Source: Micromonosporaceae bacterium
GTDB taxonomy: Bacteria > Actinomycetota > Actinomycetes > Mycobacteriales > Micromonosporaceae
Reading direction: 5' to 3'
DNA length: 33,204 nucleotides
NCBI GenBank assembly: GCA_009380105.1
Contig: WHSM01000008.1
Span: 1-33,204 of the forward strand
Part shown: positions 377 to 32,581 of the stretch, in pieces
How the letters are laid out: each line of letters begins with the position of its first letter
Numbering within the stretch: the first letter of the stretch is position 1
Notes under the pieces: model-generated
What the model saw: the letters and a program-made list of their open reading frames with translations, nothing else
Told to the model about the DNA's origin: nothing
Database searches by the model: none
Program-made: the position numbers and the translations under genes

Positions 377-830
377 TCTCTAAACCCGGTGCAGCAGATG
401 GTCTGGTGTGGTGGCTGTCGGCGAGGCCGATGTTCGGTCGTCATTGCTGCCCCCAAATGCGGGGCGGGGGTCGCTGCAGGACCGGGACCACACCGCCGAG
501 TCCCGACGGTGGGCGGCGCGCGCCGGCTCGCGGCTCGGCGATCGTCATCTCCCCGGACAACACGCTCAGCACCGATCCGGATCTTGTCCTCGGCGAGGAA
601 CACCGGCGGGCGGCTCGTCGTCATTACCCCCTGGTCAGGAACCTACATAACCTGAGCCACAAAGTCTGACGCGCGACGATGAAACGCGCCCTTGTGCGGC
701 ATCTGCGGCACACACTTGCCAGTCAGTAGCGCGGGAGGCTGGGGGCGGCACCGCTGAGCTTGCTCGCTGGGGCTGCGGGTTCATCGACATAACGGCTGAT
801 TGCCGAGCGGGATCCTTGACTTCATCCTGG
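377..830. other. Intergenic region without an intact gene
   Basis: About 450 bases separate the regulator from the first operon promoter. The ORF-track entries here (389-655, 406-669, 408-650, 635-841) are Arg/Pro/Gly/Ser-rich, mutually overlapping frames with no recognisable domain, and I treat them as chance ORFs. The exception is the minus-strand start at 624, described separately as an IS3-type relic. I see no convincing terminator hairpin after the regulator stop. Confidence 0.6.
500..624 (-). pseudogene. Decayed IS3-family OrfA transposase fragment
   Basis: Reading the minus strand from an ATG at 624, preceded by AGGGGG, gives MTTSRPPVFLAEDKIRI and then GAERVV. This resembles the N-terminus of IS3-family OrfA helix-turn-helix proteins (pattern F-x-x-E-x-K-x-x-I). 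The match breaks at about 562. The next piece of the family pattern, LSGEMTIAE, appears in another frame at about 537-563, and the frame then seems to switch back to RAASRRAPPTVG. At least one frameshift, probably two, and no downstream OrfB mean it cannot make a transposase. I cannot define inverted repeats or target duplications. This is recognition of a short pattern only, so the call is moderate. Confidence 0.45.
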
Positions 831-850
831 ATACGGTACATCGTATTCAG
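816..850 (+). promoter_or_regulatory. Promoter and putative GntR-type operator of the main operon (site 1)
   Basis: A TTGACT at 816-821 resembles a -35 element. It is followed by ATACG-GTACAT-CGTAT at 831-846, an inverted repeat with perfect 5-bp arms and a 6-bp centre that would overlap the -10 region. The -10 is not clear-cut; TCGTAT at 841-846 lies 19 bp downstream of the -35. The ATACGG half (CCGTAT on the other strand) and the following GTA-rich core recur at the two divergent promoters near 24100 and 26985. The site sits 30-50 bp before the first gene start, a position suited to repression by an FCD-family GntR protein. Operator function is inferred from position and repetition. Confidence 0.55.
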
Positions 851-2031: not shown

Positions 2032-2034
2032 CCC

Positions 2035-3219: not shown

Positions 3220-3815
3220 ACGCCGCTGATCAAATCGAGGCAGCGGCGCGGTCGGTCGAGCCGGACCGTCGGGCGGCCTGGGGTTGTACGCTGCCCGACC
3301 ACGTCGACGTCGGCGAGGCGGCGGCCCTGGTGAGCAGACTCGGGTTCGGCGCGGTGTGGCTGCACGACCGCACCTGGGAAGGCGGCCCATGCGGCTTCGT
3401 CGAGGCGGTGGTGGCCGGCGTCGCAGTCCCGGCCACCACCTTCGGCGTGTGGACGCAGGCCGGTCGCGACCATCCCGTCCGGTTCGCCGAGGACGTCGCG
3501 GTCAGCGACCGCCTGCTCGGTGGCCGGTTGCGGGTAGGCGTCCGTGGTCCCTGTCCACCGGCATGGGCATACGCGGTCGCACACGCGTGGGACGAGGAGG
3601 GCTTGGCTGTCGATGAGCCGCTCCGCCTGCCAGCCAGGGACCCGGCGAACCAGTGGATTCCGTCCGGCTGGCGTCTCACCGTCAGCCCTCGGCCGTACTC
3701 GGCATTCGTCCTGCACGTCTCCGATGGCGAGGCCCTGGATGGCGTCGCGACACGCCGGGTGACCATCCGCCAGTCACTCGGCGCTGAACTGGTGCGCGTG
3801 GAGAGGGAGTCATGA
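3216..3815 (+). CDS. Small luciferase-like (LLM) domain protein
   Basis: This 199-residue protein resembles part of a luciferase-like flavin monooxygenase barrel. EAAALVSRLGFGAVWLHDR corresponds to the early 'GF-x-x-x-W-x-x-D' strand, and AEDVAVSDRLLGGRLRVGVRG to the 'lD-x-l-S-G-G-R-l-x-x-G-v-G' strand. Full LLM enzymes have about 280-400 residues, so more than a third of the barrel is missing and the C-terminal half does not look like the family. I chose GTG 3216, which overlaps the upstream stop (GTGA) and has GACGAGG just upstream, rather than the ORF-track ATG 3186 inside the preceding gene. It also overlaps the next gene by 4 nt (ATGA). A similar short protein is encoded at 24137. It might be a subunit or an accessory flavin protein; activity is uncertain. 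Confidence 0.6.
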   Translation: MNAADQIEAAARSVEPDRRAAWGCTLPDHVDVGEAAALVSRLGFGAVWLHDRTWEGGPCGFVEAVVAGVAVPATTFGVWTQAGRDHPVRFAEDVAVSDRLLGGRLRVGVRGPCPPAWAYAVAHAWDEEGLAVDEPLRLPARDPANQWIPSGWRLTVSPRPYSAFVLHVSDGEALDGVATRRVTIRQSLGAELVRVERES

Positions 3816-4960
3816 CGGCAACACAACCTATCGGCATCCTCGGCGCTGCCCGGACTCCTGTCGGCAAGACACCCGGCATCGACTCGCTCACGCTGCATGC
3901 ACAGGCCGCGCATGCCGCGATTACGGATGCGGGCATCGACCCGCTCGCGATCGACGGGATCATCACCTTCGGCTCGTTCACCAGGGACTACGTCATGCAT
4001 TCGGCCGTCGTGGCCGAGTTCCTCGGACTGCGCAGGATCAGGTACGCGGACGTGGTGAGGATTGGTGGTGCCTCGGCCGCGGGGGCGGTGAGCCGGGCGG
4101 TCGCGGCGATCAGCGCCGGCCGGTGCGACACCGTACTGATCGTCTCCGGTGACGACCAGCTCAGCGGCCTCACCCGAGACCTCGCCGTCAAGGGCATGGC
4201 CGAGAACCGCCACTACCAATACGAGGCGCCGTACGGCGTGACGACACCGGCGGCCTTCGCCATGATGGCGCGACTGTACCTGCAACGGCACCACCTCTCC
4301 GAAGAGTTGCTGGCCCACGTCACCGTGCAGAGCCGGCGCACCGCGTCGAAGCTACCCGACGCGATGTACGGCAAGCCGTGCACGGTCGGCGAGGTGAACT
4401 CGTCGAAGCCGATCGCCGATCCCCTGCGTATGCTGCACTGCGCCCCGATCGCGGACGGGGGAGGAGCACTGGTGGCGGGTCGCGGGGCACCCGGCGAGGT
4501 GGTCGAGGTCCTCGGGTCCGGCGAGGCCCACAGCAACGCGCACCTGGTCTTCAACCCGTTCGACGCGAGCAGCGCGGCCGCCGCCTCCGCCGGGCACGCC
4601 TTCCAACAGGCGGGCGTGCGCCCGGCGGACCTGGGAGCGGCGCAGGTCTACGACTGCTTCGCCAGCGTCGTGGCGCAGGTGCTGGAGGAGGCGGGGATAG
4701 CGCCCGCGGGCCGCGCACTGTACCAGTTCGCCGACGGTGAGTACGACGTCGACGGTGGCCTGCCGGTCAATCTCAACGGCGGTCTCCTCTCCGGTGGCCA
4801 TCCCGGGATGCCCGGGGGCTTGTTGCATGTGGTCGAGGCGGCCGAACAAGTGCGGGGCAGCGCGCGGGTTCCGGTCGCGGGCGGCAAGCCGGTGTTCGTC
4901 CACTGTCTTGGAGGCATCATGTCCAACCACGCCACGCTGATCCTGGGAGGAGGGTCATGA
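3812..4960 (+). CDS. Thiolase-fold protein, Ltp2-like (lipid-transfer/SCP2-thiolase type)
   Basis: The 382 residues have a thiolase fold of the SCP2/lipid-transfer subgroup: PIGILGAARTPVGK at the start, IGGASAAGAV near residue 84, YDCFASVVAQVLEEAG, and NLNGGLLSGGHPGMPGG with His330. The position of the nucleophilic Cys of true thiolases (C-A-S-G) is Gly86 here, so classical thiolytic chemistry is unlikely. A later Cys in HCLGG is kept. Members of this subgroup paired with DUF35 proteins, such as Ltp2 of actinobacterial steroid degradation, act as retro-aldolases on beta-hydroxyacyl-CoAs. The next two genes are a DUF35 protein and a MaoC-fold protein, the same three components as that system. 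Start and stop overlap the neighbours by 4 nt each. A substrate-specific aldolase is my preferred reading. Confidence 0.82.
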   Translation: MTATQPIGILGAARTPVGKTPGIDSLTLHAQAAHAAITDAGIDPLAIDGIITFGSFTRDYVMHSAVVAEFLGLRRIRYADVVRIGGASAAGAVSRAVAAISAGRCDTVLIVSGDDQLSGLTRDLAVKGMAENRHYQYEAPYGVTTPAAFAMMARLYLQRHHLSEELLAHVTVQSRRTASKLPDAMYGKPCTVGEVNSSKPIADPLRMLHCAPIADGGGALVAGRGAPGEVVEVLGSGEAHSNAHLVFNPFDASSAAAASAGHAFQQAGVRPADLGAAQVYDCFASVVAQVLEEAGIAPAGRALYQFADGEYDVDGGLPVNLNGGLLSGGHPGMPGGLLHVVEAAEQVRGSARVPVAGGKPVFVHCLGGIMSNHATLILGGGS

Positions 4961-5376
4961 CACTCCCAGGCGCCCCGCGCAGCACCGAGGCCGCCGAGTT
5001 CTGGAACGCACTTGGCGGGGGCGACGGCACGCTGCTGCGGCAGGAGTGCGTCCAGTGCGGACGGTCCCGCCTGCCGCGCACGGCGATGTGTCCGTACTGC
5101 GGCGGCTGGGAGTCGCACTGGCGACCGGTAACCGGCCCGGCTCGTCTGGTTACCTTCACCGTGATTCGCCGCGCCCCGTCTCCCGAGTGGGCTGCGCACG
5201 CCCCGTATGGCGTCGCGATCGTGGAGGTGGCTCCTGGCTGCCGGGTGCTGGTCAACACCGACTGGCTCCCCGAGCACGCCGACCTTGGTCGGCCGGTCGT
5301 GGTGGCGGTAGAGACGGGCGACGGCGGGCCGCGGCTGGTCGCCAGTCGCGGTGGCGACGAGGCGGTGAGCCAGTGA
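4957..5376 (+). CDS. DUF35 zinc-ribbon/OB-fold protein
   Basis: This 139-residue protein has the two-part DUF35 architecture. The N-terminal rubredoxin-like zinc ribbon has Cys31-x2-Cys34 and Cys45-x2-Cys48 (QECVQCG...MCPYCGG) with the typical LPR between the pairs. An OB-fold follows, with VTFTVIRR and APYGVAIVEV strands. DUF35 proteins bind thiolase-fold partners and acyl-CoA and are needed for activity of Ltp2-type aldolases. Here the gene follows the thiolase-fold gene with an ATGA overlap and precedes a MaoC gene with a shared TGATG junction, so the three products are expected to form a complex. A few weakly conserved residues precede the ribbon. The family call is strong, and its role as obligate partner is inferred from order. 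Confidence 0.88.
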   Translation: MTLPGAPRSTEAAEFWNALGGGDGTLLRQECVQCGRSRLPRTAMCPYCGGWESHWRPVTGPARLVTFTVIRRAPSPEWAAHAPYGVAIVEVAPGCRVLVNTDWLPEHADLGRPVVVAVETGDGGPRLVASRGGDEAVSQ

Positions 5377-5810
5377 TGCAGGGTCACGAACACCTTGCCG
5401 GGATCAGTCGGGCGGAGATCCTGGCCTTCGGCCGGCTTACCGGCAACAACCACGACATGCACACCAGCGACGAGGCCGCGATGGCCATGGGCTTTCCAGC
5501 GCAGGTGGTGCAGGGGCCATATGTACTCGCGCGCGGCATTGCGTCGTCGTCGGAGGTCCTTCGCGGACACGGCATAGCACTGCTCGGGGTCTCCTGGCGC
5601 TACACCGGTGCGGCCGTGGCCGACGAGCCGTTGGACCTGGGTTGGGAAGTGACCAGCGTGCGGCGGACCAGTGCCGGCGACCGTGGCGTGGCGGAGATGA
5701 CCCTGACGCTTCAGGCGGATGGCCGCAAGGTGGGCGAGGGGAACTTCACGGTGCTCGTCAGCAAGGATTTCACCGACCGCTTTCTGGCCGATCGGCGGGG
5801 CGAGACATGA
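5376..5810 (+). CDS. MaoC-like hot-dog protein with altered hydratase motif
   Basis: The 144-residue protein is a single MaoC-like hot-dog domain, with FGRLTGNNHDMHTSDEAA followed by GFPAQVVQGPYVLARG. In R-specific enoyl-CoA hydratases the motif is S-G-D-x-N-P-x-H. Here the catalytic Asp position is Asn24 and the N-P pair is His26-Asp27, while His29 is kept. It may therefore be a non-catalytic half of a heteromeric hydratase, a thioesterase-like binder, or a variant hydratase. The start ATG 5376 shares its A with the upstream TGA; GTG 5373 is also in frame. The ORF-track start at 5046 is inside the DUF35 gene. It ends with an ATGA overlap into the ligase gene. It probably works with the Ltp2-like and DUF35 proteins. 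Confidence 0.78.
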   Translation: MQGHEHLAGISRAEILAFGRLTGNNHDMHTSDEAAMAMGFPAQVVQGPYVLARGIASSSEVLRGHGIALLGVSWRYTGAAVADEPLDLGWEVTSVRRTSAGDRGVAEMTLTLQADGRKVGEGNFTVLVSKDFTDRFLADRRGET

Positions 5811-10329: not shown

Positions 10330-10352
10330 GCGAGCGAAGCGAGACGGCATGA
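10326..10352 (+). other. Eight-codon mini-ORF with GAGCGAAGCG repeat at a gene junction
   Basis: ATG 10326 overlaps the TGA of the LivM-type gene (ATGA). It reads MSERSETA and stops at TGA 10350-10352, which again overlaps the ATG of the ATPase gene at 10349. The ATPase start has no strong Shine-Dalgarno, so ribosomes could pass from permease to mini-ORF to ATPase by two successive ATGA couplings. A near-copy, ATGAACGAGCGAAGCG, begins the AtuA-like gene at 19597, where it is fused in frame. Translation of the mini-ORF is not proven. Confidence 0.4.
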
Positions 10353-22149: not shown

Positions 22150-23318
22150 CGGCCAGCCAGGCATGGGAGCCTGCACTCGGCGTGATGGTCGCGCCGCCCC
22201 GTGTGGAGACGCCCGCAGCCCTCAGCGACGCGGTGCGGAGCGGGAACCTGCACGGGCTGTGGTGGCCTGACCACTGGATGGGGTGGGCACCGGCTGCGGC
22301 GTGGGACAGTGCCGGGCTGATCGCCTCGGTATGGGAGTCCCCCGACCTGTACGCCGATCCGTTTGTGGAGATGGTCACCCTCGGAGCCGCTGTGCGCCCG
22401 CCGCTGGTCGGCACGGCGGTGACCGACGTGGTCCGTCGTCATCCGGCAGGGCTGCTGCAGAGTGCCGAGTCGGTGCTGAGGGCCCTGCCTGACACGCGAC
22501 TCGTTCTCGGTCTGGGCGCGGGCGAGCGGGCCAATCTAGAGCCGTACGGGTTGCGGCGGGCTCCTGTCGGCCGAATCGGTGAGACCCTCGACGTGCTGCG
22601 CCAGCTACGGGACAGGGGTCAGGTCTCCTTGCAGGGCGAGCATCTCACGATGGACCGTGCGCCGCTGCCCGCGCCGTTGTGCCGCGAGTGGCTCTCGGTG
22701 TGGCTCGGCGCGCACGGGCCCCGTACCAAGGCCCTCGCGGCGGGGGTCGCCGACGGCTGGTTGCCGGTCGGTCTGTCACCGCGGCACATTCGCGAGTCGC
22801 TTGTCGCGATGGGCCGCTGGCCGCCTCCGGCGGCTGAGTCCCACGGTGGGCCTCGCAGGGACCCCGGTAAGCGGGTGTGGACCCCCGCCGCACTTGTCCC
22901 TGTCGGCATTGTGGAAAGCGATGCCGAGCGCGCGCGGATGTGCCGGTCGAATGCGCTCAAGATGTTGGCGTTGTCGTGGGACCCGGCCGTCTTCCGCCGG
23001 GTCGGCGCTGCGCACCCGCTGGGTGACTCGGCCGACCCGTTGCGCGACTTCGTGCCCGGGTGGCTCGATCGTACGGCTGCATTGCGGCTATTGTCCGCTG
23101 TGCCGGACGAGGTGGTGGGCCGGTTCATTCGCTGGGGTACGCCGGAGGCCACGGCCAAATTGTTCGGCGACTACACGCGCGCCGGTGTGCGGCACGTCAT
23201 CGCGTGGGAGGTGACCCACCTCGCCGAGCCCGGTCGGCGGAGCCGGTCACTGGAGCTGCTGGCTCAGGCATGGTCGATGACGCGGCGGCACCGGACCGGC
23301 GGGCCAGAAACGTCTTGA
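22146..23318 (+). CDS. LLM-class flavin-dependent oxidoreductase (F420-dependent reductase-like)
   Basis: This 390-residue member is longer than its neighbour. It has GNLHGLWWPDHWMGWAP at the second strand, PFVEMVTLGAAVRPPLVGTAVTDVVRRHPAGLLQSAESVLRALPDTRLVLGLGAGERANLEPYGL, and WLSVWLGAHGPRTKALAAGVADGWLPVG. These resemble methylenetetrahydromethanopterin-reductase/phthiodiolone-ketoreductase-type F420 enzymes. It is the last gene of the 23-gene run. Its 3' 122 bases overlap, in antisense, the 3' end of the crotonase gene on the minus strand, leaving no room for a classical terminator. Role in the pathway is unknown; reduction of a ketone or enone is one possibility. Confidence 0.82.
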   Translation: MTASQAWEPALGVMVAPPRVETPAALSDAVRSGNLHGLWWPDHWMGWAPAAAWDSAGLIASVWESPDLYADPFVEMVTLGAAVRPPLVGTAVTDVVRRHPAGLLQSAESVLRALPDTRLVLGLGAGERANLEPYGLRRAPVGRIGETLDVLRQLRDRGQVSLQGEHLTMDRAPLPAPLCREWLSVWLGAHGPRTKALAAGVADGWLPVGLSPRHIRESLVAMGRWPPPAAESHGGPRRDPGKRVWTPAALVPVGIVESDAERARMCRSNALKMLALSWDPAVFRRVGAAHPLGDSADPLRDFVPGWLDRTAALRLLSAVPDEVVGRFIRWGTPEATAKLFGDYTRAGVRHVIAWEVTHLAEPGRRSRSLELLAQAWSMTRRHRTGGPETS

Positions 23319-24072
23319 GCGCCTCCTGGAACTCCGGTTCCTGCAGCAGCACGGCCTGGGTGGCCGCCATCTCGTTCGCCTGCGCGATGCCAGCCACCAC
23401 GTCCTGGCGGACCAGTGCGTCCTTGCAGCGACCCAGCGCGTACGGCGTCGACTCGGCGACGGCGTCGAGGAACGGTCGCGCGACAGAGCTGACGTCCCCG
23501 CCCAGCGCGTCGACAAGTCCGATCCGGTGGGCCTCGCGCCCGTCGATGACCTCACCGGTGAGCGCGAGCCGCGCGGCCACCGGGTACCCCACCGTGCGCC
23601 GCAGCAAATACAAACCACCGAGGTCGGGGACGAGCCCACGGCGGACGAAACTGGCGGCGAGCTTCGCGTCCGGCGTCGCGACCCGGATGTCACAGGCCAG
23701 CGCGAGGTCCAGGCCGCCACCAGCGGCAGCGCCGTCGATGAGGGCGATGGTGAGCACCGGCAGCGCGACGAGGTCACGGATAATCGCCTGTTCGCGCCGC
23801 AACAAGTCGAGGACGTGCCGCCCGGAGCCCGTCGCGTGGCTGGTACCGGAGGAGAGGGCCTTGAGATCGCCGCCAACAGAGAAGTCGCCGCCTTCGCCGC
23901 GCAGCGTCACGGCCTTGAGTCCCGCTTGGTCCCGTACCGCGGCTATCGCCGCCGCTAGACCGTCCCACAACGCGGCACTGAGCGCGTTTCGCCGGTGCGG
24001 TCGGTCGAGGACGACCTCGAGCACGTCGCCACGGCGGTGGGTACGAACCCGGCCGTCCGAGACCTCCACCAC
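23197..24072 (-). CDS. Crotonase-family enoyl-CoA hydratase/isomerase
   Basis: The 291-residue crotonase has oxyanion-hole segments DFSVGGDL and DGAAAGGGLDLALACD. It lacks the two hydratase Glu residues (Val in SFVRRG and Arg/Leu in AARLALTG) but has GLVPD with Asp150, as in PaaG-type isomerases. The family normally ends near FLARR (about residue 258). Here about 33 Ala/Pro/Ser/Arg-rich residues follow, encoded entirely opposite the 3' end of the LLM gene, which looks like stop-codon loss. The start is GTG 24072, eight bases after GAGGAGG; GTG 24069 is adjacent. It is transcribed divergently from the small LLM-like gene and shares the operator-like region near 24100. Confidence 0.82.
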   Translation of the reverse strand: MVEVSDGRVRTHRRGDVLEVVLDRPHRRNALSAALWDGLAAAIAAVRDQAGLKAVTLRGEGGDFSVGGDLKALSSGTSHATGSGRHVLDLLRREQAIIRDLVALPVLTIALIDGAAAGGGLDLALACDIRVATPDAKLAASFVRRGLVPDLGGLYLLRRTVGYPVAARLALTGEVIDGREAHRIGLVDALGGDVSSVARPFLDAVAESTPYALGRCKDALVRQDVVAGIAQANEMAATQAVLLQEPEFQEALKTFLARRSGAAASSTMPEPAAPVTGSADRARRGGSPPTR

Positions 24073-24091: not shown

Positions 24092-24113
24092 ACCGTATTC
24101 GGTATACGATACT
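24092..24113. promoter_or_regulatory. Divergent promoter region with putative operator (site 2)
   Basis: The 64-bp space between the minus-strand crotonase and the plus-strand LLM-like gene contains CCGTATTCGGTATACGATAC. CGTAT (24094-24098) and ATACG (24104-24108) are perfect inverted arms around TCGGT, and GTAT/ATAC arms nest further to the right. The arrangement CCGTAT-YCKGT-ATAC is the same as in site 3 near 26981. TACGAT (24105-24110) on the plus strand and TAGTAT (24114-24109) on the minus strand could serve as -10 boxes, so a bound protein would block both directions. Operator function is inferred. Confidence 0.55.
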
Positions 24114-24136: not shown

Positions 24137-24673
24137 GTGCAGGTGACGTTGGTACCGCCCGGCCACTCGGCCGGTGCGAGGGAGCTGGTCAATGCGATGG
24201 TGGCTCTGGAATGCACGGGCGCAGACGCCGTCTGGTTCGCCGGAACGCCGACGTGGGCCGACGAGACCGGCGTGATCGCGGCGGCCTTCACCCGGACCGC
24301 AACGCTACGGCTGGGCGTGCCCGTAGGGGTGGCCGATAACGTCTTCTGGGCGGCACGGCGGATCGGCACGCTGAGCTGGGCGGCACCCGGACGCTTGGAC
24401 GTGGTATTCACCGTCGCGCGCCCGGCCGACGAACCGGTGATGCTGGCGCACCTGATGCTGTTGCGGCAAATGTGGTCCGATCCGGCCTTTGCGGAACGGG
24501 TTCAGGTCCGGCCCGCCGGGACCGGCGACCAACTGCGACCGGTGGTATTCGGGCCGGATGCGGAGGCAATCGCGACGTCGGTCCGCGCCACCTGGGCCGC
24601 CCCCAGGAACGACGGGATCCGCGGCGGCGCACCGGACGGCACCCGGTTGGAGGTCTCGTGGCTGCCCACGTGA
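24137..24673 (+). CDS. Small luciferase-like (LLM) domain protein
   Basis: The 178-residue protein looks like a reduced LLM barrel. ELVNAMVALECTGADAVWFAGTPTW mimics the second-strand region, and TATLRLGVPVGVADNVFWAARRIGTLSWAAPGRLDVVFTVARPADEP matches the 'l-x-G-v-x-V-x-x...l-D-x-x-s-x-G-R-l' strands. The substrate half and the C-terminal barrel strands are largely absent. I chose GTG 24137, six bases after GGAGG at 24126-24130; GTG 24143 is an alternative. The ORF-track start 23060 is a read-through antisense to the crotonase and is not real. With the protein encoded at 3216 this is a second mini-LLM in the cluster. Flavin binding is doubtful. Confidence 0.6.
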   Translation: MQVTLVPPGHSAGARELVNAMVALECTGADAVWFAGTPTWADETGVIAAAFTRTATLRLGVPVGVADNVFWAARRIGTLSWAAPGRLDVVFTVARPADEPVMLAHLMLLRQMWSDPAFAERVQVRPAGTGDQLRPVVFGPDAEAIATSVRATWAAPRNDGIRGGAPDGTRLEVSWLPT

Positions 24674-25452
24674 GCCCGCCGGCCAGCCCGAGCGGCGCCG
24701 CTGCGCGGCGGTTCGACGGGCAGGTGGCACTCGTAGCCGGTGGGGCAGGCGGCATCGGTGCCGAGACCTGCCGCCTGCTCGCGGAGCTGGGCGCGATCGT
24801 GTGGGTGCTGGACCAGCATTCGACGGCGGCCGACGACGTCATCGGGCAGATCCGAGTGGATGGCGGCATCTGCTACGCCTGCAGGGCGGACGCGACCGAC
24901 CGCGCGGAGGTGCACCGGGCAGTGGCCGATGTCGTCCGCACCTCAGGCCGGCTGGACGTGCTGGTGAACACGATCGGGTGGACGATGACGCGTCCGTTCA
25001 TCGAGGAGGACGAAGAGTACTGGCAGACGGTCGTAGCCGTGAACCTGCTCGCGCACATCTACCTGTGCCACGCCGTGCTCGGACCGATGGCCGCGCGTGG
25101 GTACGGCCGGATCGTGGGGGTGTCCTCGGACGCGGGCCGGGTGGGCACGCGCGGCGAGACCGTCTATGCCGCTGCCAAGGCCGCGGTCATTGGATTCACC
25201 AAGTCCCTCGCCCGTGAGGTCGCCCGCCACGGCATCCTCGTCAACGCCGTGTCACCGGGACCGACCCGCACGCCGTTGCTCGACCATCAGGACCAGAACG
25301 CCGTGGCGGCGATGATTCGCCACATCCCGGTGCGCCGGCTGGGCACGGCCAGCGAGCAAGCGGCGGCCATCACGTTTCTCGCCTCGCCGGCCGCGTCGTT
25401 CATCACCGGTCAAGTGCTGTCGGTCAGCGGCGGCCTCACGATGGTCGACTGA
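24658..25452 (+). CDS. SDR-family NAD(P)-dependent oxidoreductase
   Basis: The 264-residue classical short-chain dehydrogenase has a glycine motif AGGAGGIG (about 28-34), Asp52 after the second strand (WVLDQH) favouring NAD over NADP, an N-T-I-G variant of NNAG, catalytic SSDAG (Ser156/157) and Tyr170-x3-Lys174 in VYAAAK, and the tail SFITGQVLSVSGGLTMVD. It probably oxidises a 3-hydroxyacyl-CoA or an alicyclic alcohol. GTG 24658 follows GGAGG by four bases; GTG 24670, which overlaps the upstream stop (GTGA), is almost as likely and removes four residues. The ORF-track start 24472 lies inside the preceding gene. It is co-transcribed with the small LLM-like and hydrolase genes. Confidence 0.85.
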   Translation: MAAHVSPPASPSGAAARRFDGQVALVAGGAGGIGAETCRLLAELGAIVWVLDQHSTAADDVIGQIRVDGGICYACRADATDRAEVHRAVADVVRTSGRLDVLVNTIGWTMTRPFIEEDEEYWQTVVAVNLLAHIYLCHAVLGPMAARGYGRIVGVSSDAGRVGTRGETVYAAAKAAVIGFTKSLAREVARHGILVNAVSPGPTRTPLLDHQDQNAVAAMIRHIPVRRLGTASEQAAAITFLASPAASFITGQVLSVSGGLTMVD

Positions 25453-25462
25453 GGACGGTGAG

Positions 25463-26476
25463 ATGGTGACCGGGGTGAGCTTGCGGGCGGTGCCGTCCGT
25501 GTCGTGGGTGCGCAATGTCCGCCTGCCGATGCAACCCCACGCGGCAGGCACCATCAACGCATACCTGGTGGACACGGGCGACGGACCGGTCCTGATAGAC
25601 ACCGGATTCCACAGCACGGCGACGATTCTCACCGACGCCCTCGCCGCGTCCGGTGTAGCGCGCGGGACGCTCCGCGCGATTCTGATCACCCACAACCACG
25701 CCGACCACATCGGTGCGTCACGCTGGCTGCGCGCCCAGGAATGGCTGGCGCCCGGCGGCGAACTGGTCCTGCACGAGCTGACCGACCAGGTCGGGCGCGG
25801 AATCTTCGTCGATCTCGACCAACGACAGCGGCGGCAGTTGGTGGACAACGGGATCGACCTCGAACAGGTCCTCGAGTGGGAAGCCGACCTGACGGCTATG
25901 GCCCGGCTCGCCGACTGGCCCCGCGCCGATCGCCTGGTGCGGGACCGCGACCGGGTGGAGCTCGGGGGCGTGCCGTTCACGTTCCTGCACACCCCCGGCC
26001 ACAGCCCCGACCACTGTGCCATCCACGTATCCGCCGACAGCGAGCCGGTGGTGTTCCTCGGTGACCTGACCCTCGGTCGCGAGATGCCTCGGGTGGGCGT
26101 ACGGGACTGGTATCGCGCCGACCCCGTCCAGGATCTGCTCGACAGCTGGCTGCGGGTACGGGACCTGGACGCGCGCGTCGCGTTGCCTGGCCATGGTGGC
26201 CCGGTCCACGATCTGCGGGCCCTCGATGCCGCCATTCGAGCGGCTTACCATGCCGAGCGCCGCGAATTCCTGCGTCGCTACCAGGGTCGACTGGTCTCGG
26301 CCGCGGACGTCATGGACGAGCTGGTGTCCGCCCAGCCGGGCGCCACCTTCGGAGTACGACAGTTCGTCTTCTACGGTGCCCTGGCGATGCTGACCCACCT
26401 CCACAACCTGGGACTCGCCCGGCGGGTTCCCGGCCGTCCGGTGCGTTACGAGGTGGGAGCCGCCGTCTTGGCCTGA
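25463..26476 (+). CDS. Metallo-beta-lactamase-fold hydrolase
   Basis: The 337-residue protein has the full metal-binding pattern: HNHADH (His77, His79, Asp81, His82), HTPGHSPDH, the bridging Asp in FLGD, and PGHGG. After the catalytic domain, DVMDELVSAQPGATFGVRQFVFYGALAMLTHLHNLGLARRV looks like the winged-helix tail of LACTB2-type MBL proteins. It could hydrolyse a CoA thioester or a lactone, the latter being attractive if an LLM enzyme performs a Baeyer-Villiger step. ATG 25463 lies ten bases after the SDR stop, behind GAGGACGGTGAG. The 3' 31 bases overlap the convergent MaoC gene. Family is clear; substrate is open. Confidence 0.85.
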   Translation: MVTGVSLRAVPSVSWVRNVRLPMQPHAAGTINAYLVDTGDGPVLIDTGFHSTATILTDALAASGVARGTLRAILITHNHADHIGASRWLRAQEWLAPGGELVLHELTDQVGRGIFVDLDQRQRRQLVDNGIDLEQVLEWEADLTAMARLADWPRADRLVRDRDRVELGGVPFTFLHTPGHSPDHCAIHVSADSEPVVFLGDLTLGREMPRVGVRDWYRADPVQDLLDSWLRVRDLDARVALPGHGGPVHDLRALDAAIRAAYHAERREFLRRYQGRLVSAADVMDELVSAQPGATFGVRQFVFYGALAMLTHLHNLGLARRVPGRPVRYEVGAAVLA

Positions 26477-26946
26477 GCTTCGGGGCGTTTGGCGATGAGG
26501 AGCTTGGCGTGGCCGGTCTGCACCACCTCACCCCGCTGGTTGACGATCTCCACCTTCCGCTGTAAGACGCCACGTTCGCCATCGCTGGTTTCCCGTAGCT
26601 CGACGATGGTGACGCGCGAGTGGATCGTGTCGTTGAGCCGGATCGGCCCCTTGAAGACCCAGTGGTGCTCCAGCGCCGCGAGGGCGCTTCCCTCGAAGAT
26701 ACCCAGCCGGACCAAGAGGCCACCGGAGATCACCGCCCCCAGCGGCCCGTGGGCGATCCGCTCCCCGAAGATGGTTCCTTTCGCGTACTCCGCGTCCGTA
26801 TGCAGCGCCGTGTGATCGCCGGAGAGATATGCGTAGGTCAAGATGTCGGTTTCGGTGATCGTGCGGGCGGCTGTCACGAAGACCTGACCCAGCGAGAAGT
26901 CTTCGAAGTACATCGTCGCGGTGCGTGGCACGTCTGGCTCGGGCAT
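26446..26946 (-). CDS. MaoC-like enoyl-CoA hydratase
   Basis: The 166-residue hot-dog protein carries the canonical hydratase motif YLSGDHTALHTD, with Asp44 and His49 as the catalytic pair, then GERIAHGPLGAVISGGLL. It should hydrate a trans-2-enoyl-CoA to a 3R-hydroxyacyl-CoA. The motif is intact here, unlike in the MaoC-like protein encoded at 5376. The true start is ATG 26946, preceded on the minus strand by GAGGAGG; the ORF-track start 27270 runs antisense through the SDR gene. Its promoter lies in the divergent region with operator-like site 3. The 3' end overlaps the hydrolase gene by 31 nt. Confidence 0.85.
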   Translation of the reverse strand: MPEPDVPRTATMYFEDFSLGQVFVTAARTITETDILTYAYLSGDHTALHTDAEYAKGTIFGERIAHGPLGAVISGGLLVRLGIFEGSALAALEHHWVFKGPIRLNDTIHSRVTIVELRETSDGERGVLQRKVEIVNQRGEVVQTGHAKLLIAKRPEAQAKTAAPTS

Positions 26947-26976
26947 CAGGTTCGCCTCCTCGACGAGTAGTCTCTC

Positions 26977-26997
26977 ATACCGTATCCTGTATACTGC
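26977..26997. promoter_or_regulatory. Divergent promoter region with putative operator (site 3); leaderless start
   Basis: ATACCGTATCCTGTATACT contains CGTAT (26981-26985) and ATAC (26991-26994) arranged as in site 2, plus ATAC-c-GTAT at 26977-26985. TATACT at 26990-26995 is one mismatch from the -10 consensus, and the GTG of the SDR gene starts seven bases after it. The transcript would thus begin at or next to the start codon, a leaderless arrangement common in actinobacteria. No SD precedes that GTG. The operator overlaps the -10, so binding would occlude RNA polymerase; it also lies 31-51 bp before the MaoC start on the other strand. Confidence 0.55.
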
Positions 26998-27001
26998 ACC
27001 C

Positions 27002-27781
27002 GTGAGAAGCCCGATCATCATTACCGGCGCCGCGAAGCGGCCGGGGGAGAGCCCTGGCATTGGGTTCGCCACCGCTCGTGAGGCGGCCCGCCGAGGGTAT
27101 CCGGTGGGGCTACTCGATGTGAGCGCACGGGGGCTAGCCGGAGCACAGGACGCGCTGGGCGGCGACGGCCTCAACTGCAGGACGGCAGTGGCCGATGTGG
27201 GCGATCCCGAATCGGTACAGCGCGCGGTGGACGTACTCACGGCGGGCTCGCCCCCGAGGGCGGTGGTCAACGCCGCGGCGCTGACCCGTACGTCTCAGTC
27301 ATTCGTCCCGTTCGTCTCGCTGGGTCCGGCCGACATCGACGCCGCGGTACGAGTCAATGTCCTTGGGATGCTCAATGTGGTCCGCGCGGCCCTGCCGCTC
27401 TTCCTGGCGCGGGGCGGGGGAGTCGTCGTCAACCTGGGCTCCATCGCCGCCTCCTACCCGGCCAGCGGGCTCGCGGTTTATGCGATGACGAAGGCGGCCA
27501 TCGGCTCGGTGACCAAGTCGCTCGCCGCCGAGTACGGTTCGCGCGGTATCCACGTGCAGGGTCTGGCTCCCGGCGCGGTCAGCACCGGGTTGTTCGGCCT
27601 GGTGCCCGACCACTACCGGCGGATGTTGGTCGACCGGTCCATCGCCGGCCGGCTCGCCGAGCCCGAGGAGATCGCCCGGGAGATCCTCGCCGTCGTCGAG
27701 CGTCCGCAGCCACTGTTGGCCGGGCACATGGTGCCGCTCGACGGCGGCCTGAGCCCGTTCGGAGTTCACCGACCAGTCTGA
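27002..27781 (+). CDS. SDR-family NAD(P)-dependent oxidoreductase, extended glycine loop
   Basis: The 259-residue short-chain dehydrogenase has Ser147 (NLGSIAA), Tyr160-x3-Lys164 (VYAMTK), Asp39 after the second strand (NAD preference), V-N-A-A-A in place of NNAG, and the tail LLAGHMVPLDGGLSP. Its cofactor loop TGAAKRPGESPGIG (8-21) is several residues longer than the usual T-G-x3-G-x-G, but keeps the final G-I-G. The start is GTG 27002, directly downstream of a -10-like TATACT and without an SD; the ORF-track start 26921 lies within the promoter and MaoC region. It is followed after 22 bases by the BadI/MenB-like crotonase gene, so it may make the beta-keto acyl-CoA which that enzyme cleaves. 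Confidence 0.84.
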   Translation: MRSPIIITGAAKRPGESPGIGFATAREAARRGYPVGLLDVSARGLAGAQDALGGDGLNCRTAVADVGDPESVQRAVDVLTAGSPPRAVVNAAALTRTSQSFVPFVSLGPADIDAAVRVNVLGMLNVVRAALPLFLARGGGVVVNLGSIAASYPASGLAVYAMTKAAIGSVTKSLAAEYGSRGIHVQGLAPGAVSTGLFGLVPDHYRRMLVDRSIAGRLAEPEEIAREILAVVERPQPLLAGHMVPLDGGLSPFGVHRPV

Positions 27782-27803
27782 TCGAGGAGTGTGAGGACCG
27801 CAG

Positions 27804-28610
27804 ATGCCCGAAGACCACACGTTCACCGACATCCTCTACGACGTTGAGGGAGGAGTTGCCCGGATAACGATCAACCGGCCCGACAAGCTGAACGCGTTCA
27901 CACCCCACACAGTCAGGGAGTTGACGGTCGCCTTCGAACGGGCCGGCGACGACGCGCGCGTGGGTGTCGTGGTGCTGACCGGTGCTGGCGAGCGCGCCTT
28001 CTGCGCCGGCGGAGACGTGAGTACGGAGAACGAGGAGAGCTATCTCGCGGGAGCCGACTCCTTCGACAACCTCGTCAAGGGGCTCTATCGCGCCATCCGA
28101 GACTGTCTCAAGCCGACCATCGCCCGGATCAATGGATACGCCATCGGCGGAGGGCACCATCTGGCGTACGTCTGCGACCTGAGCATCGCCGCTGAACACG
28201 CCATCCTCGGGCAGAACGGCCCCCGGGTCGCCAGCCCCGCGGAAGGGTGGATCGTGAGCCACCTGTGGACGGTCATCGGCATGAAGCGGGCCAAGGAGAT
28301 GTGGCTCCTCTGCCGCCGCTACAGCGCGGCGCAAGCTCTCCAGTGGGGTCTGGTCAACGCCGTGGTGCCGATGGAGGACCTGGACGCCGAGGTCGCCAAC
28401 TGGGCCGATGAGCTTCTCGCGCTAAGCCCTACGGTGCTCAAGCTGCTCAAGAAGTCCTTCGACGACTCATGGTCGTGGCTGCGGGAGCAGCAGGATCGCT
28501 ACAGTATTTTGAACCAGGTCAATCCCGGCTTCTTCGAGTCGGGTGAACAGGCCGAGGGGGCCGCTGCGTTCCTCGAGAAGCGTAAGCCCGACTTCTCGGG
28601 GTGGCGCTAG
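27804..28610 (+). CDS. Crotonase-family hydrolase, BadI/MenB-like (putative ring-opening)
   Basis: The 268-residue crotonase differs from the other two. GYAIGGGHHLAYVCDLSIAAEHAILGQNGPRV, KRAKEMWLLCRRYSAAQALQWGLVNAVVPMEDLDAEVANWADELLALSPTVLKLLKKSF and the ending FLEKRKPDF resemble 2-ketocyclohexanecarboxyl-CoA hydrolase (BadI) and naphthoate synthase (MenB) more than fatty-acid hydratases. Glu165 in AKEMW is present, as is Glu147 in SPAEGW. BadI-type enzymes open a beta-keto-acyl-CoA ring by a retro-Claisen/Dieckmann reaction, so this gene hints at an alicyclic intermediate. GAGGAGTGTGAGG precedes ATG 27804. Its TAG stop interleaves with the TAG of the convergent permease gene through a CTAG palindrome at 28607-28610. 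A plain hydratase is the alternative. Confidence 0.8.
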   Translation: MPEDHTFTDILYDVEGGVARITINRPDKLNAFTPHTVRELTVAFERAGDDARVGVVVLTGAGERAFCAGGDVSTENEESYLAGADSFDNLVKGLYRAIRDCLKPTIARINGYAIGGGHHLAYVCDLSIAAEHAILGQNGPRVASPAEGWIVSHLWTVIGMKRAKEMWLLCRRYSAAQALQWGLVNAVVPMEDLDAEVANWADELLALSPTVLKLLKKSFDDSWSWLREQQDRYSILNQVNPGFFESGEQAEGAAAFLEKRKPDFSGWR

Positions 28611-29602
28611 CCCGGATCCCGCCGGCCCGGCGCCGGTTGCCGCGAGCGCCACAGCCGCTTCACGCCACCGGCGATGCCTTCGCCGAGGAAGTAGGCCACG
28701 AGCGCGATGACCGCGGCCGTAACCAGTGGCGGGACCGCGGTCAGCGCTGGTCCTTCAAGTGGGAGCTGGCGGAGGTAGAACGTCAGCACTGACACGAAGG
28801 CGGCGCCGAGTACCGGTCCCCATACAGTTCCGATCCCGCCGAGCAGGGTAGCCAGAAGGATCTGCAGCTGCAGGTCGAGTCCAAAATGCAGATCGGGCGA
28901 GAAGTACAACAGGTAGACAGCGTTGAACCCGCCGGCGAATCCGGTGAGCGCCGCACTGAGCGTCAGCGCGCTGAGCTTGTGGCGCAGCGGCGGGATGCCG
29001 ACCGCCTGGGCCGCCCGCTCGTTCTCGCGCACCGCCCGCCAGCGGTAGCCCAAGCGGGAACGGTTGATCCGCCACACGAGTGCGACGACGCCGGCGGTCA
29101 GGGCCAACATCACGTAGAAGTAGATCTCACGGCGGTCGAAGATGAACATGACCGGATCGTCGACGACTGGGAAGAACGCGCCGGACGTGCCCTTCAAGAC
29201 CGGAGCCTGCCGGGCGAACCCGAGAGCCAGAAAGCCGAACGCCAGCGTCAGCACGGCGAAGTAGAGACCGGTAACCGCGCGCCGAAACGCGACGTAGCCG
29301 ATGAGCGACGCATATGCCGCGGCCGCCCCGGCACCTAGCGGCATGCCGGCGTACGGCGTCACGCCCCAGTCGATCGCCGCCGTTGCGGTCACCAGTGCGC
29401 CGATGCCGTAGAAGGCACCGTGCGCGAGGGAGAGCTGCCCGGTGAAACCGGCGACGAGGTTCCACGCCGAACACAGGAACGCCAGCAGCAGCGTGTTGAA
29501 GATTAGGTCCACGTACACGCTCTTGAGCGTGGCCGGCACCACTGCCAGCGCCACCACCCCGGCTAGCATGAGGGCGCCAACGACGACGCGGCCACGGTTC
29601 AC
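28607..29602 (-). CDS. ABC transporter permease, LivM type (second transporter)
   Basis: The 331-residue permease has the LivM pattern LVAGFTGQLSLAHGAFYGIGALV near residues 49-71 and the coupling loop NRSRLGYRWRAVRENERAAQAVGIPPLRHKLSALTLSAALTGFAGGF. About nine to ten membrane segments can be drawn. It ends in a basic tail (GVKRLWRSRQPAPGRRDPG). The start is GTG 29602, overlapping the LivH-type stop on the same strand. It is the last gene of the right-hand minus-strand operon and converges tightly on the BadI/MenB-like gene, without a terminator-like hairpin between them. Confidence 0.88.
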   Translation of the reverse strand: MNRGRVVVGALMLAGVVALAVVPATLKSVYVDLIFNTLLLAFLCSAWNLVAGFTGQLSLAHGAFYGIGALVTATAAIDWGVTPYAGMPLGAGAAAAYASLIGYVAFRRAVTGLYFAVLTLAFGFLALGFARQAPVLKGTSGAFFPVVDDPVMFIFDRREIYFYVMLALTAGVVALVWRINRSRLGYRWRAVRENERAAQAVGIPPLRHKLSALTLSAALTGFAGGFNAVYLLYFSPDLHFGLDLQLQILLATLLGGIGTVWGPVLGAAFVSVLTFYLRQLPLEGPALTAVPPLVTAAVIALVAYFLGEGIAGGVKRLWRSRQPAPGRRDPG

Positions 29603-30459
29603 GCCGTCCTCCCGGCGAACAGGCCGCGTGGGCGGAACAGAAGCACGGGGATGATGGCGAGGTAGATCACCGAGGTCGCGATCGACTGGGGCAGGTAGCT
29701 CACCCCAACCGTCTCGAAGACACCGACGGCGACCGCCGTGGCGAGAATACCTCCCGTGCTGCCCGGGCTGGCGATGATGACGATGAGGAACGCGCGCACG
29801 GTGAGGTCGAGCCCGTGGTGCGGCTCGGTAGGGGTGAACGGCGCGATCAGCACGCCGGCCGCCGCCGCCAGTGCGGCCCCCACGACAAAGGCTCTCGCGG
29901 CTGTGCGCCGCGAGTCCACCCCGGTCACCTCCGCACCGAACGGGTTGGCCGCCATCGCCCGCAACGACCGGCCGAAAGTAGTCCTCGCGACCAGGACGGC
30001 GACGGCGACGACGAGCGCCACCCCGACCAGCCCGGCGATCAGGCGTGCTCGCAGGATGCGCGTGCCGAACACCTCCACGACCGCGGTCTGCCCCAGTTGG
30101 CTCGACTGTGCCTCGGGACCGAACACGAGCAGGTAGGCGTTCTGCAATACCAGGACTATCGCGAAGGTGACCACGATCTGGAGAAAGTGCGAGCGGCGGG
30201 CTATGAATCGGAGTCCTCCGCCGTACATCGCCATCCCGAAGGCTGTGGCCACCCCGAAGCCGACAAGACCGCTGAGGAGATAGCTGTCGAACACCGCGAA
30301 GGCCGTCACGGTGACGTAGACAGCCACCGCCACGACTTCGCCGTGCGCCAGGTTGACGAAGTTGAGCACTCCGAACACCAGGCCCAGGCCGAGTGCGAGC
30401 AAGGCGTACACGGTCCCGACCGCAGTACCTTCGAGCACCAGGCGCCAGACGGTCTCCAT
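29599..30459 (-). CDS. ABC transporter permease, LivH type (second transporter)
   Basis: The 286-residue LivH-type permease begins METVWRLVLEGTAVGTVYALLALGLGLVFGVLNFVNLAHGEVVAVAVYV, the family's first two membrane segments with N-L-A-H-G-E. The coupling loop RTTFGRSLRAMAANPFGAEVTGVDSRRTAARAF faces the ATPase. ATG 30459 lies nine bases after the receptor stop, and the 3' end overlaps the LivM-type gene by 4 nt. It pairs with that permease and with the ATPases at the right edge. It is not a close copy of the LivH-type protein of the first transporter. Confidence 0.88.
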   Translation of the reverse strand: METVWRLVLEGTAVGTVYALLALGLGLVFGVLNFVNLAHGEVVAVAVYVTVTAFAVFDSYLLSGLVGFGVATAFGMAMYGGGLRFIARRSHFLQIVVTFAIVLVLQNAYLLVFGPEAQSSQLGQTAVVEVFGTRILRARLIAGLVGVALVVAVAVLVARTTFGRSLRAMAANPFGAEVTGVDSRRTAARAFVVGAALAAAAGVLIAPFTPTEPHHGLDLTVRAFLIVIIASPGSTGGILATAVAVGVFETVGVSYLPQSIATSVIYLAIIPVLLFRPRGLFAGRTA

Positions 30460-30468
30460 CGGTCCGGG

Positions 30469-31776
30469 CTACTTCCGAACAGGCCAGTTCGGCCCGGCGG
30501 TGGCGTACTGTTCAGGGTAGATGACCCGCTGTACCCCGTCCTGCCACTGGCTGACCAGGTAGACCTGGCGCGTGTTGTGATTGCGTTCGTCGAACTCGCA
30601 CCCTTCCGGGATGATCCAGTAGCCGTCGCCCACCTGCAGGTCGGTCTGCTCCAAGGCATCCCGCAGCGCGTCCCGGCTCGCTGACCGGGTTCGCTGGAGT
30701 GCATCCACCACCACCGCAGCCGCCGTCAGGTTCGTCCCTGACACGTGGTCCAAGTCGGCACCGGTTCTCGTCTTGTACATGTCGTTGAGCTCTTTCGCCC
30801 GCGGAATCTTCGCGGCCACATCCGGAACGAAGTACGACGTGTTGATGGTGTTGTCGGCCAGGTCCCCCAACTCCTTTCCGTAGCTGGCGCTCGAGTGCCC
30901 GCCGGTCGCCGTCACCACGCCGAGCGGCTCGTACCCGACCTCTTGGAACACCCGGCGAACCGCGATGGCGTTGGCCGGCGTGTACGCGTGCTGGACCACC
31001 ACGTCGATGTTCTCTGCCTTCGCACGCCGGACGAGGGTGCGCGACGCCTTGGGTTCACGTGCCGGGTAGGTCACCCGGTCAACCACGGTGAACCCTCTGT
31101 TCTTCGCCTGCGCCTCCAATGCATTGGCCAGCTCCACGGCCACCGCGGCGTCTTCGGTCATCACCATGATCCGCTCTGCCCTGACACCGGTCTTGTCGCC
31201 GATGAAGTCCAGCCACTCCACGGCGGCGTCCGCGGCTCCCGTGGTATAGGCGGCCGGCTGGAACACATAGCGGAAGCCGCGACTGACGATCTTCCGCGCA
31301 CCATCAGAGGTACAGATCCACGGCACCTTGGCCCGGTTGGCGATGGGTGAGGCCACCGCGGTCGCGTCGGACTGGATGCTGCCGAGGATGGCGAGAACGT
31401 CCCCGCCCACGAGCTGCTGTGTCTGGCTCGCCGCGGTCTGTGCATCGGTCTGGCTGTCCTTGAGGACCGGGACCAGCTCGGCGCCGCCGAGGTTGTCGAT
31501 GCCACCATTCGCGTTGACATCGTCTAACACCATCTTGATGGCCTCGTACGCGGACTTGCCGTATGCGGCCGCCGCACCCGTCATCGGCAGGACGAGCCCG
31601 ATCCTTACCTCGGATACCTGTGCCGGTCCGCCGGCCTCGTCGTCTCCGCTGGCGCACGCGGCAAGCAGCCCCGGGGCCATGACGGCACCGGCCACGAGCG
31701 CCGAGTCCCGAAGGAACCCGCGACGGGAGTGGCCTGTCGCGATCGCCGGGTCGGTAGCGTTGCTTGGTTCGCTCAT
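30469..31776 (-). CDS. ABC transporter substrate-binding protein, Tat lipoprotein (second transporter)
   Basis: The 435-residue receptor of the Peripla_BP_6 family carries a twin-arginine signal (HSRRGFLRDS, Arg18-Arg19) and a lipobox LLAAC with Cys41. The mature part starts VRIGLVLPMTGAAAAYGKSAYEAIKMVLDDVNANGGI, then has LKDSQTDAQTAASQTQQLVGGDVLAILGSIQSDATAVASPIANRAKVPW, close to the amide/branched-chain binding protein pattern. The start is ATG 31776 with AAAGGCA upstream; the ORF-track start 31941 lies inside the neighbouring ATPase gene. A 55-bp spacer separates it from that gene, the longest gap in this operon, so extra ribosome loading or a separate start is possible. The ligand is unknown. 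Confidence 0.88.
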   Translation of the reverse strand: MSEPSNATDPAIATGHSRRGFLRDSALVAGAVMAPGLLAACASGDDEAGGPAQVSEVRIGLVLPMTGAAAAYGKSAYEAIKMVLDDVNANGGIDNLGGAELVPVLKDSQTDAQTAASQTQQLVGGDVLAILGSIQSDATAVASPIANRAKVPWICTSDGARKIVSRGFRYVFQPAAYTTGAADAAVEWLDFIGDKTGVRAERIMVMTEDAAVAVELANALEAQAKNRGFTVVDRVTYPAREPKASRTLVRRAKAENIDVVVQHAYTPANAIAVRRVFQEVGYEPLGVVTATGGHSSASYGKELGDLADNTINTSYFVPDVAAKIPRAKELNDMYKTRTGADLDHVSGTNLTAAAVVVDALQRTRSASRDALRDALEQTDLQVGDGYWIIPEGCEFDERNHNTRQVYLVSQWQDGVQRVIYPEQYATAGPNWPVRK

Positions 31777-31809
31777 CTGACGATCTGCCTTTCGCAGGAT
31801 AGGAGGGGG

Positions 31810-31826
31810 CCGGCCGCGAGGGCCGG
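31810..31826. other. Short GC-rich hairpin between ATPase and receptor genes
   Basis: CCGGCC-gcgag-GGCCGG forms a 6-bp all-GC stem with a 5-base loop in the 55-bp spacer of the minus-strand operon. It has no U-run on either side. It might temper read-through or protect the receptor part of the mRNA, which is often needed in excess, but in DNA this GC-rich such a stem can arise by chance. Confidence 0.25.
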
Positions 31827-31831
31827 GGTCG

Positions 31832-32581
31832 CTATGCCGGTGATCGATCGGAGTCGCTTCCGGTCGAGTCCGAGCCCAGGTACGCCTCACGAAGCCGCAG
31901 GTCGCGGCCGATGTCAGTGGGCGAGCCGCGGAGCACCACACGACCGTTCTCCAGAACCAGCGCGTCGTCGGCCCACCGCAGGGCGAGAGAGGCGTTCTGC
32001 TCGGCGAGCAGCACCGGTGTCCCCGCGTCGGCGATGCGGCGCGCGGTGTGGAGAACGCTCCCCACGATCAAAGGGGCGAGACCCAGGGAAGGTTCGTCAA
32101 GGAGAAGGACGGCCGGACGTTGCACGACCGCTCGCGCGATGGCGAGCATCTGCTGCTCGCCGCCGGAGAGCGTGCCGGCGGACTGGCCCGCCCGGTCGCG
32201 GAGGACGGGGAACATCTGGAGGACGTAGTCGATCGGGTGGCCGTTGTCCACCACCCTGCTGGCCAGTTGCAGGTGTTCGGCCACCGACATGTCGGGGAAC
32301 AGCTGCCTCCCCTCGGGGACTACTCCCAGCCCGGCCCGAACCCGAGCGTCCGCGCGCCTGTTGGTGACATCCTGCCCCCGCAGCCGGATGCTTCCCGCGC
32401 GCGGACGAACCCAGCCGCCGATCGCGCCGAGAGCGGTGGTCTTTCCGGCGCCGTTCGCGCCGAGCAGGCAGGTGATCCGTCCGGGGACCAGCCGCACCGC
32501 AAACCCCCGGAGTGCGATGGTCCCGCCGTAGCCGGCGTCTATGTCGACTGCTTCCAGAACGGCCTCAGTCATCGTGGTCAC
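31832..32581 (-). CDS. ABC transporter ATP-binding protein, LivF type (second transporter)
   Basis: The 249-residue ATPase has Walker A GANGAGKTT, signature LSGGEQQMLAIARA, Walker B VLLLDEPSLGLAP and the LivF-type VLLAEQNASLALRWAD switch. The C-terminus ends in a Ser/Asp-rich tail of no known function. GTG 32581 has GAGG nine bases upstream; ATG 32572, three codons later, is an alternative. Either overlaps the LivG-type gene by 8-17 nt. It energises the second transporter together with the partial ATPase at the edge. Confidence 0.88.
   Translation of the reverse strand: MTTMTEAVLEAVDIDAGYGGTIALRGFAVRLVPGRITCLLGANGAGKTTALGAIGGWVRPRAGSIRLRGQDVTNRRADARVRAGLGVVPEGRQLFPDMSVAEHLQLASRVVDNGHPIDYVLQMFPVLRDRAGQSAGTLSGGEQQMLAIARAVVQRPAVLLLDEPSLGLAPLIVGSVLHTARRIADAGTPVLLAEQNASLALRWADDALVLENGRVVLRGSPTDIGRDLRLREAYLGSDSTGSDSDRSPA

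Follow-up and report, generated by a model that had tools for sequence, protein, structure and literature searches.

The window analysed here, that is, the whole stretch of 33,204 nucleotides, contains an SDR gene followed by a crotonase gene, located among catabolic genes that are flanked by two ABC transporter sets. The features considered are listed below; the assignments of the ABC transporters and of the luciferase-type monooxygenases were read directly from the sequence.

824..837, unstranded: operator-like site, third copy, preceding the first transporter gene at 880
880-11832, plus strand: branched-chain-amino-acid-type ABC transporter set
2035-3219, 15788-16840 and 17610-18659, plus strand: three family III (CaiB/BaiF) CoA-transferase-like genes, one of them confirmed by Pfam
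3812..5810, plus strand: genes for lipid-transfer/thiolase-like, ChsH2-type OB/Zn-ribbon and MaoC-like proteins, a trio also found with an SDR and a related crotonase in locus L179
16837-17613, plus strand: crotonase
18656-19600, 21307-23318 and 24139-24673, plus strand: luciferase-type (LLM) monooxygenase-like genes
19597-20997, plus strand: AtuA-family protein (acyclic terpene utilisation; PF07287, 410 bits)
~23200-24072, minus strand: crotonase, antisense to a long spurious plus-strand open reading frame
24092..24105, unstranded: operator-like site, second copy, in the region between the divergent minus-strand crotonase and a plus-strand flavin monooxygenase-like gene
24676..25452, plus strand: BadH-like SDR (48% identity to BadH; TIGR03206), candidate maker of the beta-keto substrate
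25463-26476, plus strand: hydrolase with a metallo-beta-lactamase fold, flanked by the BadH-like SDR and MaoC genes
26446..26946, minus strand: MaoC-type hydratase, from profile matches, divergent from the SDR
26976..26994, unstranded: operator-like site ACCGTATYCNGKAT, in the promoter region between the MaoC-type gene (minus) and the SDR (plus), overlapping TATACT
27002..27781, plus strand: SDR-family dehydrogenase, 259 aa, GTG start at 27002 and TGA ending at 27781
27804..28610, plus strand: crotonase of the MenB/BadI lineage, 268 aa, ATG start, in a separate 'SPA-x-G' clade with an altered active site; putative beta-ketoacyl-CoA C-C hydrolase
28607-33098, minus strand: branched-chain-amino-acid-type ABC transporter set, following the crotonase on the opposite strand

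The SDR and the crotonase lie on the plus strand, 22 bases apart, and both their spacing and their coordinates agree exactly with the initial annotation. G+C content at the third codon position is 0.83 for the SDR and 0.84 for the crotonase, and the products match the Pfam SDR models (3e-36) and ECH_1 (1.7e-66), respectively. The SDR shares with the MaoC-type gene of the minus strand a divergent intergenic stretch of 55 bases; in this stretch a -10-like TATACT stands only a few bases 5′ of the GTG start, and because of this proximity the SDR message may be leaderless.

The pattern ACCGTATYCNGKAT, with at most one mismatch, has three matches in the window versus 0.06 expected, and the whole 4.65 Mb genome contains the same three copies only, all on this contig, while the reversed control pattern gave no match in the whole-genome search; the pattern was written from the same three sites, and the counts are thus a support and not an independent test. 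A strict 19-base pattern, allowing up to three mismatches, matched only itself, whereas a shorter consensus recovered the three sites. The operator-like site noticed ahead of the pair is thus real by the measure of its three genomic copies and of the empty control. The copies appear clustered, which does not imply binding, and they support a putative single regulon that would take in the SDR-crotonase pair.

Among the NCBIfam models, the crotonase scored best with MenB (272.7 bits) and BadI (259.3 bits), and the matches span its full length; the likeness to these families that had been noticed at first was found, but its restriction to the mid and C-terminal segments was not. Identity to MenB and BadI is 43-45%. 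The seven best matches in a sequence search of the PDB were MenB, and a fold search with a structure model of the crotonase (mean pLDDT 84.9) returned MenB structures for all of the best 50 matches listed. In a maximum-likelihood tree of 71 rows, a branch supported at 100/99 separates MenB, BadI, an actinobacterial group and the window crotonase from the ordinary hydratases. The other two crotonases of the window have different best models and are placed outside this branch, with the ordinary hydratases, confirming that the crotonase of the pair is unlike them. A second crotonase of the MenB/BadI lineage (48% identity) is encoded in the same genome, on the minus strand (G000:C200:5124-5906, L002); it keeps the active-site Asp and lacks Tyr258, belongs to the actinobacterial group and scores below the MenB and BadI cut-offs.

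Inside the MenB/BadI branch, the window crotonase and a Mycobacterium homologue (75% identity) fall in a 23-row clade of their own (support 100/100), which is weakly supported (82/41) as the sister of BadI. The clade comprises sequences from Nevskia, Burkholderiales, Enhydrobacter, Sphingopyxis, Leisingera, SAR11, Chloroflexi and actinobacteria; identity to the window crotonase is 50-62% for the homologues in Nevskia, Burkholderiales, SAR11 and Chloroflexi, and 50-52% for those of SAR11. The clade is widespread but sparse, since a close copy occurs in only three of the 369 genomes from the class of the L034 genome, itself counted. Crotonase fold, oxyanion-hole glycines and tree placement concur: next to MenB and BadI, the crotonase belongs to a third branch of the lineage, so far undescribed. 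The phylogeny with BadI and MenB therefore bears out the lineage first proposed, and the placement among fatty-acid hydratases that would have spoken against it is absent.

The active site was compared using the residue numbering of E. coli MenB (Gly86, Tyr97, Gly133, Gly156, Ser161, Asp163 and Tyr258), with the roles of Tyr97, Tyr258, Ser161 and the glycines taken from the literature (PMC3637252). In the window crotonase, the alignment places the relevant codons as follows.

28149..28160, plus strand: codons 116-119 (G-G-H-H), with the oxyanion Gly116 and His119
28233..28241, plus strand: codons 144-146 (S-P-A), the Ser161 equivalent being retained and Asp163 lost (Ala146)
28533..28535, plus strand: codon 244, Phe in place of MenB Tyr258

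The clade retains Gly86 and Gly133, which form the oxyanion hole, and Gly156, the bicarbonate site of type I MenB, while the Ser161 equivalent is kept in 19 of 20 clade rows. Asp163 is replaced by Ala and Tyr258 by Phe, each in 19/20 rows, and Tyr97 is lost, whereas Asp163 and Tyr258 are present in all of the nine BadI-clade and ten MenB-clade rows. The SVDPG motif of BadI reads SPAEG in the window crotonase, which hence has neither the MenB residues Tyr97, Asp163 and Tyr258 nor the SVDPG Asp and the Tyr258 of BadI. Also the two hydratase glutamates, Glu144 and Glu164 in the numbering of the rat hydratase, are absent, their positions being occupied by His119 and Gly139. His119 was found in all of the 18 core clade rows scored, while Val is the commonest state in every comparison group (BadI, MenB and others). 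Further residues specific to the clade are Tyr122, Asn138, His153 and Pro241. Because the catalytic residues of both types are lost, the crotonase cannot be a standard hydratase, and it cannot be a standard BadI or MenB either; an ordinary hydratase is ruled out by the tree and by the loss of both glutamates.

That the gene codes for an ordinary BadI or MenB is very improbable: these are the best-scoring families, with 43-45% identity to both, but the scores remain far below the curated cut-offs, both for BadI (2-ketocyclohexanecarboxyl-CoA hydrolase; TIGR03210, 259.3 bits, or 258.8 in the genome search, versus 467.6) and for MenB (TIGR01929, 243.5 versus 342.7; PRK07396, 272.7 versus 380), the catalytic Asp and Tyr are absent, the clade is separate at 100/100 and no men genes were seen beside the crotonase. 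BadI or MenB proper was discarded on these cut-offs and residues. With BadI the window crotonase shares the lineage, 45% identity, an SDR upstream, the oxyanion glycines and the equivalents of Ser161 and Gly156; with MenB, its best structural and sequence match (42-45%), it shares Gly86, Gly133, Gly156 and Ser161.

It is scarcely credible that the crotonase is a steroid-ring hydrolase of the EchA20 kind or a 6-oxocamphor hydrolase. Both are crotonase ring hydrolases, EchA20 (HIEC-CoA hydrolase) being proposed to open a ring by a reverse Dieckmann reaction (PMC5380842), and the window holds thiolase/ChsH2-like genes; but the identity of EchA20 is no higher than 28% to MenB and 24% to BadI (PMC5380842), versus the 43-45% of the window crotonase, and EchA20 would represent a much more remote line, judging from the published identities. 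6-Oxocamphor hydrolase has no entry among the best 60 PDB sequence matches or the best 50 fold matches listed, and a literature search on 6-oxocamphor hydrolase or on retro-Claisen crotonases yielded no usable information.

The SDR adjacent to the crotonase has the catalytic Ser and the Tyr-x3-Lys motif (VYAMTK), and an Asp at the end of beta-2 suggests that it may use NAD. Its identity to BadH is 28%, with a very long tree branch, and the BadH model (TIGR03206, cut-off 431.2 bits) is absent from its best 25 models; BadH was rejected as its identity on account of the low identity and of the long branch. No relatives of this SDR were found at E<=1e-40 in 150 related genomes, nor among plasmids at the thresholds used. 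Located 1.5 kb upstream of it, the SDR at 24676-25452 has TIGR03206 as its best model, with 252 bits, below the cut-off. Either of the two SDRs could supply the substrate of the crotonase. Of the dehydrogenase and BadI-type pair proposed in the initial annotation, the crotonase lineage and the pairing stand, while the identity with BadH and BadI does not, given an adjacent SDR unlike BadH and a crotonase devoid of the BadI Asp and Tyr; the arrangement also differs from that of BadI in that the gene directly upstream is not BadH.

The order SDR then crotonase is recurrent: an SDR is found directly upstream of the clade crotonase, on the same strand, in seven of the 16 non-SAR11 loci examined (the window, L032, L034, L037, L049, L179 and L180), and relatives occur in alicyclic or benzoyl-CoA contexts, in agreement with the original proposal. 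One SDR orthologue group (support 100/100, 73-78% identity) has members directly upstream of the clade crotonase in L034 and L037, and of a true BadI, carrying the SVDPG and YY motifs, in L157, L163 and L164; the clade crotonase and BadI thus interchange beside one SDR, suggesting that their substrates are related. In L034, the SDR-crotonase pair follows the benzoyl-CoA reductase genes bzdN (778 bits, cut-off 453.8) and bzdO (855.3 bits, cut-off 448.6), and the locus also codes for a MaoC protein and for a ferredoxin/NAD(P) oxidoreductase. In the L034 genome, whose completeness is not established, no Oah, Had or Dch scored over cut-off; a BadI-type gene is present elsewhere in it. More generally, 8 of the 11 genomes with a clade crotonase have a second gene of the MenB/BadI type, which is of BadI type in seven of these, and in three genomes (G157, G158 and G159) BadI lies 31-49 kb from the clade crotonase on the same contig. 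The hypothesis of a simple replacement of BadI by the clade was abandoned, as most genomes with the clade crotonase also hold a BadI-type gene.

Locus L179 shows the order acyl-CoA dehydrogenase, ChsH2-type OB protein, thiolase-like protein, MaoC, hydratase, SDR and crotonase, and these protein types recur in the window. Relatives of the window MaoC-type hydratase (26446..26946), with 40-41% identity, lie within about 8 kb of the clade crotonase in three Burkholderiales loci. In SAR11 and Leisingera, the neighbours of the clade crotonase are acetate-/acetoacetate-CoA-ligase-like genes and transporters, and there is no sign of a ring pathway among them; in these organisms a ring is not indicated, and the substrate could be a beta-ketoacyl-CoA. 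A route to a beta-ketoacyl-CoA is what the neighbourhoods have in common, through an SDR in many and possibly through a ligase in SAR11 and Leisingera.

These neighbourhoods, together with the MenB/BadI ancestry, are the reason for considering C-C hydrolysis by a rebuilt site. The reading adopted here, held with a confidence just short of even, is that the crotonase hydrolyses a C-C bond of a cyclic beta-ketoacyl-CoA, a retro-Claisen or retro-Dieckmann ring opening. In its favour are the lineage, the absence of both glutamates along with the conserved oxyanion glycines and Ser161, the interchange of the SDR partner with BadI, bzdN and bzdO in L034 without Oah, Had and Dch, and the gene set common to the window and L179. 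Against it, Asp163, Tyr258 and Tyr97, which act on the ring keto group in MenB and BadI, are gone, and therefore a site built anew would be required for the same chemistry; moreover, SAR11 and Leisingera lack signs of a ring pathway, BadI often co-occurs and the adjacent SDR is not of BadH type. As for the ring that the initial annotation had proposed in the substrate, it is only the neighbourhoods of the relatives that point to it.

In the proposed route, a CoA ligase or CoA transferase would activate the acid, an acyl-CoA dehydrogenase and a hydratase would yield the beta-hydroxy thioester, and one of the two SDRs (27002-27781 or the BadH-like 24676-25452) would oxidise it with NAD+. The oxyanion hole of the crotonase (Gly70, Gly116) would then hold the thioester carbonyl, with Ser144 orienting the keto group, and water would attack the ketone; in place of the lost Asp/Tyr pair, the role of base might fall to the invariant His119, to His153 or to an anion bound near Gly139. 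The product would be an open-chain acyl-CoA with a free carboxylate, to be degraded by ordinary beta-oxidation.

The same His119, acting as acid/base in place of Glu144, could instead serve a different crotonase-type reaction on substrates of the same sort, such as hydration, dehydration, a double-bond shift or retro-aldol cleavage. This is considered somewhat unlikely: it would fit the loss of Asp163, Tyr97 and Tyr258, the occurrence of His119 at the Glu144 position in every row scored and the many relatives in beta-oxidation clusters that need a hydratase step, but a further crotonase and a MaoC hydratase are usually present in these clusters as well, the lineage is that of MenB/BadI and the SDR partner interchanges with BadI. 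Quite unlikely is the hydrolysis of acyclic, probably 2-branched, beta-ketoacyl-CoA substrates with no ring. It would account for the SAR11 and Leisingera homologues beside the ligase-like genes, with no ring pathway evident, and for the thiolase-like/ChsH2-OB genes of the window, typical of chain shortening; the bzd cluster and the SDR orthologue shared with BadI point instead to rings in Proteobacteria, and SAR11, at its low identity to the window crotonase, may differ in substrate.

Ring opening by the clade crotonase would have parallels in two known pathways. In the monoterpene ring cleavage of Castellaniella defragrans, a pathway acting on a terpenoid ring, MrcE and MrcD likewise combine an SDR with a hydrolase of BadI type (PMC4109377); MrcE shares 88% identity with the Azoarcus sp. 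KH32C BadI (PMC4109377), whereas the window crotonase lies outside the BadI clade. The bad-ali cyclohexanecarboxylate pathway (AliA, AliB, BadK, BadH and BadI), which in Aromatoleum runs with oxygen too (PMC9795900), has counterparts in the window in a ligase, acyl-CoA dehydrogenase, hydratase, BadH-like SDR and BadI-lineage crotonase; however, identity to AliA/AliB is only 26-28% for the ligases and acyl-CoA dehydrogenases of the window, and no curated bad or ali model was over cut-off among the window proteins scanned. The AtuA-family gene and the LLM monooxygenase-like genes give no more than a hint of a terpenoid substrate; the three LLM monooxygenase-like genes tested had no curated NCBIfam match at E<=1e-45. 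A short open reading frame after the AtuA-family gene (~21000-21310, plus strand) may be its small partner, and the metallo-beta-lactamase-fold hydrolase might cleave a lactone or a thioester in the same pathway.

Members of the clade are annotated merely as 'enoyl-CoA hydratase-related protein', although they cannot use the hydratase mechanism and are devoid of the residues of their nearest characterised relatives. Should ring opening hold, the degradation of alicyclic compounds, terpenoids and benzoyl-CoA would gain an enzyme, and the clade would illustrate how a C-C hydrolase site is rebuilt in crotonases; otherwise, automated BadI/MenB calls would be misleading for the whole clade. An unlikely extension of the ring-opening reading is that the clade forms a separate family, with a histidine-centred site replacing the Asp/Tyr of BadI and MenB, serving aerobic alicyclic catabolism and, in bacteria that lack Oah/BamA, also an alternative ring opening downstream of benzoyl-CoA reductase.

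Some minor observations concern the other members of the clade. SAR11 retains the crotonase despite very small genomes; in two of its loci (L043:8092-10762 and L038) the gene overlaps an acetate-CoA-ligase-like gene, and a nearby open reading frame may code for an enolase-superfamily protein. A sub-branch from Celeribacter and Salipiger (L115:12001-12774 and L117:12001-12771) carries the motif AYPTSG where SPAGG would stand, with a Glu at the position of Gly139 and a Tyr at 258, and represents another version of the active site.
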